DNA of 64,000 nucleotides, from positions 1-64,000 of the forward strand of contig WRKM01000010.1 of the NCBI GenBank assembly GCA_009778065.1, given 5' to 3'. This document shows positions 3,708 to 49,536 of this stretch, one piece after another. The number at the start of each line of letters is the position of its first letter. The first letter of the stretch is position 1. This stretch comes from Oscillospiraceae bacterium. Its GTDB lineage: Bacteria; Bacillota; Clostridia; Oscillospirales; Ruminococcaceae. A model generated the notes under the pieces. That model ran no database searches. It saw only the letters and a program-made list of their open reading frames with translations, and was not told the DNA's origin. The position numbers and the translations under genes were made by a program.

Positions 3708-4046
3708 ATGATTAATTATATTATGGTTTTAATACTTTTTTCAGCGGCAGGGTATTTTTTAATCTTTATTCCGTTTTCCGCTTTTTACAAAGGAAGAATA
3801 AGGACAATAGAAATAATTGACAAGTGGGTAAAAAGCGGTTTTTATTCTTCTGACGAATATATTTACGAACAGTATACTTCAGAACCGATAAACAGAAAAA
3901 CATATATAGTAATTTATTGTAATTATCGCGGAAAACCGAAAAAGGGACGGGTAGGGTATTGTTCATGGTCTGTATATGATGATTTGGAGATAGGTGAAAT
4001 ATATTTGGTAAGAAAGAAATTTAAAACAATAGTGGAAATATTATAA
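3708..4046 (+). CDS. Hypothetical membrane-anchored protein
   Basis: I do not recognise this 112-residue protein. One hydrophobic segment covers about residues 4-26 (from IMVLILFSAAGYF), followed by a basic patch and a soluble C-terminal part rich in Tyr, Lys and Ile that looks beta-stranded (YIVIYCNYRG). It starts four bases after the smc stop and lacks an obvious Shine-Dalgarno of its own, so it may be translated by coupling. Base composition is clearly more AT-rich than smc or ftsY, as is the following RAYT, suggesting both belong to an inserted segment in the smc-ftsY operon. Confidence 0.6.
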   Translation: MINYIMVLILFSAAGYFLIFIPFSAFYKGRIRTIEIIDKWVKSGFYSSDEYIYEQYTSEPINRKTYIVIYCNYRGKPKKGRVGYCSWSVYDDLEIGEIYLVRKKFKTIVEIL

Positions 4047-4071: not shown

Positions 4072-4632
4072 ATGAAATTACCCATTAGAAAAAATATTCG
4101 CTTGCCGGGATATAATTACTCACAATCGGGTTATTATTTTATTACAATATGTGTTGAAAAAAGGCAAAATATGTTAGGAAATGTAGGGGACGGCGTCCTC
4201 GACGTCCCATTTAACGGCGTCCTCGACGTCCTGCGTGAATCACCGATTGTTTTATCGGAATATGGAAAGATTACAGAGAAGCATATAATAGCATTAAACG
4301 AATATTACGAACACATATCAATTCAAAATTATGTTATTATGCCTAATCACGTACATATATTATTAGCTGTATTAAACGAACATGAAAAAGATGACAAAAC
4401 ATCGAGGACGCCGTTAAACGGGACGTCGAGGACGCCGTCCCCTACAAATGCTGTTGTTCCGGCGTTTGTTTCTACATTGAAACGATTTATACATAAAGAG
4501 TGTGGTTTTTCGTTGTTTCAACGTGCATACCATGACCGAATTATTCGCAATGAAGACGAATATATGAGTGTATGGAAATACATAGATGAAAATCCGGTAA
4601 AGTATGAAAAATATCCCGAAATTCGGGAGTAA
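4072..4632 (+). CDS. REP-associated tyrosine transposase (RAYT), family 1
   Basis: A 186-residue single-domain Y1 transposase of the IS200/IS605-like RAYT group, which cuts and joins single-stranded REP hairpins. The N-terminus LPIRKNIRLPGYNYSQSGYY is typical of the group. The HUH motif is PNHVHIL near residue 91, and the catalytic Tyr is most likely in FQRAYHDRII near residue 150. Unlike most RAYTs, two stretches of the protein (GDGVLDVPFNGVLDVL and TSRTPLNGTSRTPSPT) are encoded by REP units, one on each side of the HUH segment, in opposite orientation and in frame. It resembles the second RAYT at 45985-46512, which carries a different REP family at the same places. The rest of the protein looks intact, so activity is plausible. 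Confidence 0.9.
   Translation: MKLPIRKNIRLPGYNYSQSGYYFITICVEKRQNMLGNVGDGVLDVPFNGVLDVLRESPIVLSEYGKITEKHIIALNEYYEHISIQNYVIMPNHVHILLAVLNEHEKDDKTSRTPLNGTSRTPSPTNAVVPAFVSTLKRFIHKECGFSLFQRAYHDRIIRNEDEYMSVWKYIDENPVKYEKYPEIRE
4183..4231 (+). repeat. REP unit inside RAYT gene, left arm
   Basis: A complete family-1 REP unit with GTAG foot covers 4183-4208. A partial second copy lacking the foot follows at 4214-4231. Both are in frame and encode part of the transposase. Bases 4183-4208 are the exact reverse complement of 4420-4445. Confidence 0.9.
4400..4445 (-). repeat. REP unit inside RAYT gene, right arm
   Basis: The mirror image of the left arm: a partial unit at about 4401-4414, then a complete unit at 4420-4445 ending in CTAC (GTAG on the minus strand). 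Together with the left arm it forms a 26-bp perfect inverted repeat with a spacer of about 210 bases that holds the HUH codons. Confidence 0.9.
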
Positions 4633-45984: not shown

Positions 45985-46512
45985 ATGGAGAATAAGTTGC
46001 CGATAAGGAAGAAGATAAGACTGACCGGGTATGATTACTCACAAGAGGGGTATTACCATATTACGATATGCGTTAAAAACGGACACGAGATGTTAGCACA
46101 AATAATTGTAGGGGACGCCGCCCACGGCGTCCCGTGTGTAGAATTGACCGATATAGGCAGAGTTGTAGAGCATTATATTGAAAATATAAATATAGTTTAT
46201 GGCGATGAAGTAAAATTAGATAAATATGTAATTATGCCAAACCATATTCATATGATAATCGTGTTAAATAATAGCGGGACGCCGTGGGCGGCGTCCCCTA
46301 CAAAAGCGAAAATTCCCAAAGTCATCAATTCGCTTAAAACATTGGTAACGAAAAAAATCGGGTTTTCAATTTGGCATCGGTCGTATAATGACCGTATCGT
46401 GCGGAGCGAACAGGCATATCGCAATATTTGGCAGTACATAGAAGAAAATCCGATGAAATGGCAAGTAGACAAATATTATACCAAACAAGAAGAAATTATA
46501 TACGGAGAATAA
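45985..46512 (+). CDS. REP-associated tyrosine transposase (RAYT), family 2
   Basis: A 175-residue RAYT starting MENKLPIRKKIRLTGYDYSQ. HUH motif PNHIHMII near residue 85 and the likely catalytic Tyr in WHRSYNDRIV near 137. Sequence IVGDAAHGVPC before, and NSGTPWAASPTK after, the HUH segment are encoded by one inverted pair of 27-base REP units of family 2. The insertion points correspond to those in the RAYT at 4072-4632. The gene is intact and has a possible promoter of its own. Confidence 0.9.
   Translation: MENKLPIRKKIRLTGYDYSQEGYYHITICVKNGHEMLAQIIVGDAAHGVPCVELTDIGRVVEHYIENINIVYGDEVKLDKYVIMPNHIHMIIVLNNSGTPWAASPTKAKIPKVINSLKTLVTKKIGFSIWHRSYNDRIVRSEQAYRNIWQYIEENPMKWQVDKYYTKQEEIIYGE
46108..46134 (+). 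repeat. REP unit (family 2) inside RAYT gene, left arm
   Basis: GTAG foot followed by a tight hairpin: GGGACGCCG, loop CCCA, CGGCGTCCC. It is exactly complementary to 46275-46301. Confidence 0.9.
46275..46301 (-). repeat. REP unit (family 2) inside RAYT gene, right arm
   Basis: Exact inverted copy of 46108-46134 ending in CTAC. The arms are separated by 140 bases holding the HUH codons. Confidence 0.9.
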
Positions 46513-46636: not shown

Positions 46637-49456
46637 TTAATCGTCAATATATGTCCTGCTGTCATAGATGAACGAACCATTGATTATATCGCCCTGTCCC
46701 GAAGCCATCCCGAATCTCTTCAGCCCGTATGCACCCGTAACGTCCGGTAAAACTTTTTCCTCTTCCAAAGCCTGTGAGAAAACAAACACAGCGTTAATCT
46801 TTATCGTTTTGGCGTTATCTATGAACTCCGACCAGTCGGCGTTTTTGTTGCAATATCCGCCAATCCGCATTTGTACACCCTTCCCTGTGTCGGGCTTCTC
46901 AACATATGTATAATCGTCTCCGCTTTTTTGAACGTAGTAATCGGCAGGCTCAAGCACAAATCTCATCGTCTGCTGTATACTGCTGACAGGGTAGCCCAAT
47001 CCCGAACCGACAAACGGCTTATCTTGAGTGTTTACGGCTTCCTTTGAGCCTTCAATCGTCAGAAAAACATTATTGTTTGCGCCGACATTCACGTTCGTCT
47101 TATCCGTCAGTGCGACAGCATCGCCTGTCAGCGTAAACTTAACATCAAGCGTGACATCCATAGCACTGTTATTGATTGCCGTGGGGACAGCGTCACTTAC
47201 GGGCAGAATCCCCCCTGCATAGGCTTTGAGTTCTTCTGTATCTATGCTCTCGCCGGGTTTCAATCCGCGTACCAAGCCCTGCGGGTCAAGTATAAAATCC
47301 CATGCCTTGCTTGTGGGAAGCTCCACCCTGTAGATTTTTGTATCTACCCATAACACCGTGCCTTCCCCGTATATTATAGGGGAACCGCTGTTGTTATTGT
47401 TATTATTGTTACCGTTATTATTATCGCCGTCACCGTCACCGTCGCCATCGCCATCACCATCACCGCCATTGCCGGGGTTTCCCGGGTCTGCGGCATCGGG
47501 ATGTATAAAGTCTGAATAGCGGAACGAAATGGCAGTGCCTGTCGTCTGTAACGTGCTAAGCGAGGACACAGGCGTAGTCACGTTTTCAAACAACGTCACA
47601 GCCATGAGATAAGCGGTAGCAACGTCACCCGTTTCTATACTGTTAACTCCTGCTTTGAGCGGCACAATATCTGCACCTAAAGCGGACGAACCCGCCGGAG
47701 AAAAATGAAATATATTAGGGTTCGCCGGGTTAAAGGAAATCGGTGTCCCCTTCGGTATGGCTATGTAATATCTGCCTTTCGCACTTTCGGGTATGTATAT
47801 ATGCAGATGCTTGTTGCCGGCGGGGTTTGAATTAGATAAGCTGTAAAACATTTCATGTGATGCGCCGCCGCTAATTGGCGAGCCGTAGCCGTTCATGGTA
47901 ATGTTCCCCACTCCCTGTAACCCCGGAAAAGCGGTGAGTCCCTGTAGGTTCGGGATGGGAGAAGATGTGTCCCCGTCCCTTGTCAAAAGAGCGCCCCTGC
48001 CCATTACGGGGCGTATACCCCACAGATTCCACGGATTATCTGTGCTTTGTAAAAGCTTTTCGGTCTGGACGACCTGACTGCCCAATACTTTACCGCCGTC
48101 TGCCGCAAAGGTCTCCATGAACACATAATATGTATTTTCAAAAGCATCGGCGGGGGAAAGAGATGTACCGAGTACGCTGTTATAAGCCGCACCGACATAT
48201 TGGTTTATTGCGGTACGTCCGCTTATGTAGCTTTGTTTCTGTGCATAAGTGCCATACGATGACATTGAACTCGCAAAATAGGCGTACATGCCCCGCGCAT
48301 AGGTTCCGTTCGTCTTTTTGTGCATCATCGCGGAGTGAAGATAGCCCATACCGTAGTTTTTACTGCTGTTATTAAAGTTAAAAAGGTCGCCCGCAACGCT
48401 TCCGTTTTGGTAGGAGTTGCCCGCCGCCCCTATAACCCTTCCGCTACTGATTACTTCTGAGCCTGATTGAACATAATACATATCGGCAAGACCGCTCAAA
48501 GCCTCATTAAGCCATGAATAAACATTCGGTAAGCCATAAGCACCGAGGTGCATGAAGAAAAGCATATGCTGAAACTCATGCGCCAAAGTACCGTTAAATT
48601 GTAATTTTTGGCTCGCATCACCTATCAGCAATGAGTAACCTTGGGTTCTTCCTATATCAACATGGAACACATCAATGGGGTGAACATTTTGAGAGCCGCT
48701 TGTACGGGGGACGGCGCGGACGTTCCGCATATCACCGTTCGTAAAGTATCCCGCAGTATACCCCGCGCTGTTCGTACCATCGTTAGCAATATCATAAAGC
48801 AGGATATTGACCTTTCCGTCCTGTCCGAAGTCCCCGACATTGCTTATATCACTGTAGTTTGTGCTGAAGAAGACGCCCGTATGTGCCGCAAAGCCTGTAG
48901 TCGGGTGGGTCATTCGCGCATAAATCCCGTCAAAGTCTTGTGCTATTCCATTAAAATTAATACCCGCGCCTGCGGTCAAGGTGCAGTTGGCATTACATGC
49001 ACTGCCCGTTTGAGCATGAAAATCCGCATCATCAAGAATCCATACATTAGTATTTGTACCCTGAGCCTTCAGATGCCCTAATACGGCACGTTGCGTCCCG
49101 CTACTGTTGATTTCAACTGAGAAATATCTCTCATCGTTAGTACCCATGCTGAAAGGACCTGATTCCTGCCCGACTACAGCCGCCGCAGGTGCAAAAAGAG
49201 ACGTGACGAGCGGAACGGATTCATAGGGCTTATGTACGGCTCCCCCATCGTCAATGATTAAGGTAGTAAGCGCGAGTTCAAAACCATCGTCAAAGAAAGA
49301 CTCCCTAAAATCATCGAGGGGGTCAATAAATAATGCAGTATCGCCGTCAACCGCCTCGAACGCCGCCACAAAAGCCATATAGGGTGCGAAAATCACACTT
49401 ATCGCGATGACTCCGCCCAATAAAGCCGTAAATCTCTTAAATATTTTTGTTTTCAT
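46637..49456 (-). CDS. Secreted M30-like zinc metalloprotease
   Basis: About 939 residues from the ATG at 49456 behind AAGGA. A signal peptide (FTALLGGVIAISVIFAPYMA) is followed by a domain with the zinc site HEFQH near residue 294 and a downstream Glu in SWLNEALSGLADMYY, the pattern of M30 (hyicolysin) peptidases. A Gly/Asp then Asn linker near residue 675 (GDGDGDGDGDGD, NNNNNNN) separates it from a C-terminal part (residues 700-939) of unknown fold. No sortase motif, SLH or dockerin module is seen. Confidence 0.85.
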   Translation of the reverse strand: MKTKIFKRFTALLGGVIAISVIFAPYMAFVAAFEAVDGDTALFIDPLDDFRESFFDDGFELALTTLIIDDGGAVHKPYESVPLVTSLFAPAAAVVGQESGPFSMGTNDERYFSVEINSSGTQRAVLGHLKAQGTNTNVWILDDADFHAQTGSACNANCTLTAGAGINFNGIAQDFDGIYARMTHPTTGFAAHTGVFFSTNYSDISNVGDFGQDGKVNILLYDIANDGTNSAGYTAGYFTNGDMRNVRAVPRTSGSQNVHPIDVFHVDIGRTQGYSLLIGDASQKLQFNGTLAHEFQHMLFFMHLGAYGLPNVYSWLNEALSGLADMYYVQSGSEVISSGRVIGAAGNSYQNGSVAGDLFNFNNSSKNYGMGYLHSAMMHKKTNGTYARGMYAYFASSMSSYGTYAQKQSYISGRTAINQYVGAAYNSVLGTSLSPADAFENTYYVFMETFAADGGKVLGSQVVQTEKLLQSTDNPWNLWGIRPVMGRGALLTRDGDTSSPIPNLQGLTAFPGLQGVGNITMNGYGSPISGGASHEMFYSLSNSNPAGNKHLHIYIPESAKGRYYIAIPKGTPISFNPANPNIFHFSPAGSSALGADIVPLKAGVNSIETGDVATAYLMAVTLFENVTTPVSSLSTLQTTGTAISFRYSDFIHPDAADPGNPGNGGDGDGDGDGDGDGDNNNGNNNNNNNSGSPIIYGEGTVLWVDTKIYRVELPTSKAWDFILDPQGLVRGLKPGESIDTEELKAYAGGILPVSDAVPTAINNSAMDVTLDVKFTLTGDAVALTDKTNVNVGANNNVFLTIEGSKEAVNTQDKPFVGSGLGYPVSSIQQTMRFVLEPADYYVQKSGDDYTYVEKPDTGKGVQMRIGGYCNKNADWSEFIDNAKTIKINAVFVFSQALEEEKVLPDVTGAYGLKRFGMASGQGDIINGSFIYDSRTYIDD

Positions 49457-49536
49457 TTTAATTAATTCCTTATTTCTTCTGCCTTTTGTATCAATTATCG
49501 GCAAATTTTATGAAAAATTCAGTTTCTGTTCATTTA

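Follow-up and report, generated by a model that had tools for sequence, protein, structure and literature searches.

The window analyzed here is a 64,000-nt stretch of DNA (contig WRKM01000010.1, positions 1 to 64,000) from an Oscillospiraceae bacterium (assembly GCA_009778065.1; genome G000 in our set). It contains two genes for REP-associated tyrosine transposases (RAYTs; REP, repetitive extragenic palindromic sequence), RAYT1 and RAYT2, the only RAYT genes found in the whole genome. Here, we report that RAYT1 carries an inverted pair of its own REPs in frame, one on each side of the codons for its HUH motif, that this layout recurs in many RAYTs of the order, and that the two REPs of a gene (its "arms") are probably kept as matched DNA sites. 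Handles beginning with G, C, and L stand for genomes, contigs, and loci. The features of RAYT1 are as follows:

4072 to 4632, plus strand: RAYT1, a REP-associated tyrosine (HUH/Y1) transposase of 186 amino acids, matching NF047646
4182 to 4229, plus strand: 5′ arm of RAYT1, comprising a REP (4183 to 4208) and a partial second copy (4214 to 4231), in frame and encoding NVGDGVLDVPFNGVLD
4345 to 4356, plus strand: HUH codons of RAYT1 (N-H-V-H), between the arms
4399 to 4446, minus strand: 3′ arm of RAYT1, comprising an inverted REP (4420 to 4445) and a partial second copy (4399 to 4414), in frame and encoding SRTPLNGTSRTPSPT
4579 to 4581, plus strand: codon of Tyr170 of RAYT1, a residue invariant in alignments A2 and A3

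The initial annotation of this DNA had described an exact 26-bp inverted REP pair with partial inner copies, in frame and bracketing the HUH codons, and this description was confirmed. The pair is GTAG tagged; with the partial second copies included, the arms measure 48 nt each, are 96% complementary, and are separated by 169 nt, and the frame stays open across both. In RAYT2, an exact inverted pair of 29 nt occupies the two corresponding protein positions and is of a REP type (type 2) unlike that of RAYT1 (type 1):

45985 to 46512, plus strand: RAYT2, 175 amino acids, 48% identical to RAYT1
46106 to 46134, plus strand: 5′ arm of RAYT2, REP type 2
46240 to 46251, plus strand: HUH codons of RAYT2 (N-H-I-H)
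46275 to 46303, minus strand: 3′ arm of RAYT2, inverted REP type 2

As single-stranded DNA, each arm is predicted to fold as a hairpin preceded by an unpaired GTAG (−9.8 kcal/mol for RAYT1 and −13.1 kcal/mol for RAYT2).

RAYT1 is a RAYT by its HUH motif and a Y..xNP tyrosine in a predicted Y1 fold. The NCBIfam RAYT model NF047646 matches it with an E value of 6.6e-15 (55 bits, below the model's 80-bit cut-off), as it does all 44 members of alignment A2 (E ≤ 0.001); the match to Pfam Y1_Tnp (E = 0.058) is below cut-off and counts against membership. His93, His95, and Tyr170 are invariant in A2 and A3, and Tyr170 is presumably the catalytic tyrosine, as in the HUH family. The nearest solved structure to the A2 profile is 4ER8 (Escherichia coli TnpAREP; E = 1.9e-12), and the loop names beta1-alphaA and beta3-alphaC were set by profile alignment to it and by the wording of Quentin et al. 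(2018, PMC6006769). As for REPs flanking the gene, another mark of RAYTs, no type-1 core (≤3 mismatches) lay outside the frame within 3 kb of RAYT1.

A cognate REP family is present in the genome for both RAYT types, and on this point the initial annotation is borne out. The 22-nt core of type 1 has four matches in the window (≤3 mismatches; 0.00 expected from shuffles), and one external occurrence is an inverted pair resembling a REPIN (REP doublet forming hairpins):

18 to 91, no strand assigned: extragenic inverted pair (REPIN-like) of the RAYT1 REP type, just upstream of smc at the start of the contig

Genome-wide, a 19-nt type-1 pattern (≤2 mismatches) occurs at 10 sites, of which 3 are within the RAYT1 gene. 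The other seven are external and all lie at four contig ends (C6, C10, C25, and C34), which suggests that type-1 repeats broke the assembly, and the true number of copies behind them may be no more than two to four. Type 2 has at least 31 external sites (≤4 mismatches, in the stretches fetched). Across both types and the fetched stretches of G000, 34 of 39 external sites are outside open frames of ≥100 amino acids.

RAYTs were sought with a two-RAYT profile (E value, 1e-5) in 295 genomes of the order and found in 68, among which that of the window is the sole one of its genus (at least eight others of the genus were searched). From these profile matches, a subset of 91 RAYTs was assembled from 30 loci found automatically, 60 places picked by hand, most of them full length, and RAYT2. 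With a threshold of ≥17 matching bases for an internal inverted pair, 70 of the 91 frames contained a REP pair, compared with 0 of 273 codon-shuffled controls, and a wider contig scan found one in 46 of the 80 loci kept (1 of 240 controls), so the arms exceed chance. By title, 43 of the 46 are clostridial (exceptions, L189, L192, and L207). The arms of pair-bearing genes are inverted and nearly always occupy the same two loops; other places or reversed tags were seen in L099 (of the 70) and in L189, L192, L207, and L217 (of the 46). Of the 70 5′ arms, 66 share one codon phase for GTAGGG, and of the 70 3′ arms, 55 share one for CCCTAC; in genes where both tags could be located, the distance from tag to tag is 172 to 293 nt (median, 194 nt). 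In four loci (L070, L089, L154, and L170), the arms are enlarged by extra in-gene copies of the REP body (2 to 5 units per side), sometimes on one side only.

The arm statistics cover the 110 genes in which both tags were clean; the other 5 of the 115 genes with a pair (L093, L097, L099, L135, and L217) were dropped. An own-REP copy outside the gene within 1.5 kb was found in just 17 of the 110 (some flanks were shorter than 1.5 kb), so in most of them the pair inside the gene is not accompanied by the flanking REPs that are usual for RAYTs. The 110 genes hold 57 arm types. Over the 18 nt beyond the tag, arm identity averages 0.931 within a gene versus 0.407 across genes (95th percentile across genes, 0.778), and the within-gene value was reached in 0 of 1,000 permutations. 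The best match of a 3′ arm among all 5′ arms was its own in 85 genes (ties allowed) and uniquely its own in 41. The arms also change together: in 55 tree-independent pairs of genes (arm-free tree), 173 positions had changed identically in both arms versus 83 in one arm only. In L077 and L122, for example, the core proteins are 77% identical; arms match at 17/24 and 15/24 positions between the genes and at 23/24 within each. A first tree, made with the arms aligned (37 changes of pair presence), was dropped because the alignment smeared the arms, and it was rebuilt with the arms cut out (166 of 170 genes kept; L083, L225, L130, L147, and any protein shorter than 120 amino acids excluded).

Genome-wide copy counts cover the two REP types of the window and two others, GTAGGGGCGCGCATTGCGCGTCC and GTAGGGACAGGCGTCCTCGACTGTCC, the latter two in the same 12 genomes. 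Within two mismatches and with in-gene arms included, GTAGGGGCGCGCATTGCGCGTCC has 89, 18, 28, and 37 copies in four genomes chosen for a RAYT carrying it and 0 to 2 in the eight others. Among genomes whose RAYT carries GTAGGGACAGGCGTCCTCGACTGTCC, G061 has two sites, both inside the RAYT gene, G245 has seven, and G256 and G263 have five each; G131 (6 sites) and G141 (13 sites) have RAYTs carrying GTAGGGACAGGCGTCCTCGACTGTCC or a type two mismatches away. One site was found in G236 and none in the other five genomes. Apart from GTAGGGACAGGCGTCCTCGACTGTCC in G061, the arm types counted in this way correspond to REPs dispersed in the genomes that carry them.

Clear copies of the REP-HUH-REP segment outside RAYT genes were found in one genome. 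G141 has two (C19:23352-23557 and C25:73380-73585), 97.6% identical over 206 bp, with the alignment ending 1 to 2 nt from the tags on both sides and with flanks that show no similarity to each other. Aligned to other RAYTs, the C19 copy remains homologous up to ~10 nt past the 3′ tag, and no N- or C-terminal RAYT part was present in the 901 nt read around it. In their matching parts, the isolated copies share 95% identity with the RAYT of G061 and 98% with a G141 RAYT copy. Searching the 68 genomes with an inner-segment profile yielded 124 matches (17 loci fetched, mainly with short frames); in G000, only the two RAYT genes matched. A third candidate (L256, G283) begins at the tag, but its homology extends ~22 nt past the 3′ tag, and it was counted as partial. 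An apparent inversion switch (L264, G167:C167), in which the inner segment is inverted behind the N-terminal part, was rejected; at the end of the contig, the sequence turns back into the reverse of the gene's 5′ portion, which fits better with a fold-back or assembly artifact. Taken together, the copies suggest REPIN-like movement of the catalytic segment in G141, apparently as a rare event, and lend some support to the shuffling of that segment proposed in the initial annotation.

Inner and outer parts of the proteins were also compared for signs of a possible exchange of the inner segment between genes, 7 further genes being excluded beyond those left out of the arm statistics. Their identities correlate at 0.46 over 5,253 pairs, and some pairs depart from this trend (L060/L062, outer 0.70 and inner 0.30; L077/L163, inner 0.70 and outer 0.42); the inner part is ~45 residues long, and the comparison is one of identities. 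Nine broken RAYT copies could be placed, chosen from split or short matches and hence not a rate (L264, L267, and L268 were excluded as rearranged or too degraded). The frame breaks at an arm in seven (L147, L248, L249, L250, L251, L252, and L261) and elsewhere in L259 and L260. In G147, three contigs (L257, L258, and L266) stop within the inner segment of a RAYT, a hint that this genome may have multiple near-identical copies, or variants, of it.

What is kept in the arms can be judged from the 66 genes whose arms differ (136 mismatches in total). Stem pairs hit by these differences were compensated in 29 cases, kept via a one-sided change in 7, and broken in 8, versus 1.5, 13.2, and 73.8 in an average replicate with random substitutions; with each distinct arm pair entered a single time, the figures were 24, 7, and 8. 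These numbers bear on an mRNA switch, in which the arms would be kept so that the message forms a long stem limiting RAYT translation. Such autoregulation, raised by the initial annotation, is physically plausible, the predicted fold of 4170 to 4460 reaching −117.8 kcal/mol (z = −11.7), but only 39 of the 136 mismatches would remain paired (G-U) in an arm-to-arm mRNA duplex, and it is mostly the hairpin within each arm that is preserved. On the GTAG strand, G-T wobbles number 12 in the 5′ arm and 13 in the 3′ arm, versus 0 and 1 for A-C; this strand of the 3′ arm is the opposite of the mRNA, in which its G-T wobbles would be A-C. Wobbles private to one arm are few (G-T, 2 in the 5′ arm and 4 in the 3′ arm, the latter versus 1 A-C), and this evidence is of modest weight. 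The substitution pattern does not favor mRNA pairing, and we consider the switch unlikely. Less credible still is a role at the protein level, with the REP-coded residues as needed surface loops and the DNA pattern as a by-product. V38, G39, and P124 are indeed nearly invariant in A2; the other arm-coded residues vary widely between genes, V-G and P-T excepted, which answers the concern in the initial annotation that homologues lacking REPs might have the same residues. The V-G of the first site occurs in 120 of 170 genes and is coded GTAGGG in 115 of these 120 (11 of 15 among genes outside the arm set), though GTA makes up 28% of the valine codons in these RAYT genes, so it is the DNA tag that is kept; furthermore, RAYTs without arms retain the HUH and tyrosine motifs (by eye). 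Because of the compensatory stem changes and this coding of V-G, the DNA hairpin and its tag, rather than the residues, appear to be what is conserved.

A stronger competitor, though still an improbable one, is that the REPs are passive, having entered two permissive loops long ago, and that template switching or gene conversion (between arms, within hairpins, or with genomic REPs) preserves their likeness with no function for the enzyme. The second loop has been described in PMC6006769 as peripheral, with little impact on activity; placed broken copies mostly break at an arm; many armless RAYTs retain an open frame; and L059 and L070 have an identical doubling in both arms, which suggests arm-to-arm copying and keeps this explanation alive. 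Against it, both arms bear the unpaired GTAG tag in 110 of 115 pair-bearing genes, and hairpin correction alone would presumably not maintain this tag; also, pairs stand at two sites in many lineages, yet most other REP copies counted in G000 lie outside frames. We weigh it below the reading that RAYT1 and RAYT2 belong to a clostridial-type lineage whose gene often holds its own REPIN, with arms kept as matched DNA sites, which we regard as probable. We read the arms as putative working REPs that form this REPIN within the gene, the catalytic segment being its cargo: two GTAG-tagged hairpins stand head to head, one in the beta1-alphaA loop and one in the loop that follows the HUH strand; the RAYT would nick them when single stranded and occasionally copy the REP-HUH-REP segment elsewhere; the gene would bring its own substrate into a new genome, where the arms would seed REP populations; and the matching of the arms may be kept partly through copying between them. 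A further step is possible, though we put it forward only tentatively: REP-HUH-REP may be a mobile cassette that the RAYT can copy and exchange, making the gene a self-contained transposon nested in its own frame, which would seed a new REP population where it lands and might swap catalytic cores between RAYTs.

Several observations weigh against a kept and mobile in-gene REPIN. RAYTs can do without the pair, which is missing from 21 of the 91 in the order and from 34 of the 80 in the wider scan; 51 scored pairless genes have a tag only downstream of HUH (16 genes), only upstream (5), on both sides (8), or on neither (22). Its presence fits the tree weakly (35 changes versus a shuffled mean of 43.4, lowest 35). 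In 25 of the 110 genes, the 5′ arm of another gene beats their own as a match to the 3′ arm, and the shared doubling in L059 and L070 shows how arms might come to match without selection, by template switching between inverted repeats. Isolated cassettes are rare (two clear and one partial among the mainly short-frame inner-segment matches inspected), and since the C25 copy of G141 lies ~120 nt downstream of a frame-broken RAYT (L250) whose own second arm is missing, it might conceivably be the remnant of a second RAYT.

Around RAYT1, relatives of the same genus were compared at the smc-ftsY junction. Two further open reading frames (ORFs) of the window were noted:

3708 to 4046, plus strand: 112-amino-acid ORF between smc and RAYT1
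46637 to 49504, minus strand: 955-amino-acid ORF with an HEFQH motif, a putative secreted zinc metalloprotease

In 19 of the 20 same-genus relatives that were searched, the stretches surrounding ftsY gave a match neither to RAYT1 nor to the 112-amino-acid ORF. In L280 and L281, the two closest relatives, the last matched smc codon lies just 12 to 15 nt from ftsY, with no RAYT there, which makes RAYT1 and the ORF look inserted between smc and ftsY. A third relative (L282) has ~870 nt of other sequence between the two genes, and five ftsY loci of relatives had no smc match in the stretch examined.

How REPs arise and how the match between a RAYT and its REPs persists are questions that bear on this gene. 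With enzyme and substrate in one frame and arms changing in step, these genes are a natural record of coevolution (57 types in 110 genes); they could serve directly as a panel for testing REP recognition, and they point to a candidate way in which new REP families are founded. Should the isolated REP-HUH-REP copies be confirmed, they would provide a natural case of a REP-bounded unit that has moved and whose origin can be traced.

The initial annotation had held that known RAYT genes are flanked by REPs outside the gene, and this needs correction: REPs inside RAYT frames have been known since 2018, the relevant passages of Quentin et al. (PMC6006769) stating that in tnpAREP genes of subclass 2.4 REPs can insert without frame disruption, usually between HuH and Y. 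A layout with paired arms at two sites, the covariation of the arms, and isolated REP-HUH-REP copies had no account in the open-licence literature searched, including the examined parts of PMC3733652, PMC8266576, PMC3116915, and PMC2817692. As far as the consulted parts of these sources describe them, several known systems are close. Intragenic GTAG/CGTC REPs and the RPEs (Rickettsia palindromic elements) of Rickettsia (Di Nocera et al. 2013, PMC3733652) are likewise in-frame palindromic repeats in genes, there in various genes and mostly at differing sites, whereas here the transposase's own cognate REP occupies two corresponding sites. Coding palindromes of Nematomorpha mitochondria (PMC6649704) are also perfect inverted repeats inside protein-coding genes, those genes being mitochondrial, with no REP or transposase apparent in the account given. 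The REPIN of Bertels and Rainey (2011, PMC3116915) shares with our pairs the use of two inverted REPs as a unit with outward tags; it is described there as having many copies per genome, and the pairs reported here differ in spanning 172 to 293 nt from tag to tag, enclosing the HUH codons, and standing inside the transposase gene. Also close is TnpAREP subclass 2.4, or Bertels RAYT group 4, which as presented in PMC6006769 has in-frame REPs, a variable loop between HUH and the tyrosine, the motif NH[IFV]H (found in both RAYTs of the window), and long GT[AG]G REPs. Its WQ and YIxNNP motifs are partly matched, as FQ or WH and as YIDENP or YIEENP, and the 16 of 51 pairless genes with a tag only after HUH resemble the single insertion described for it. 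Unlike subclass 2.4 in that description, the pair-bearing genes have an arm on each side of HUH, upstream and downstream, and the two are inverted, matched, and covarying.
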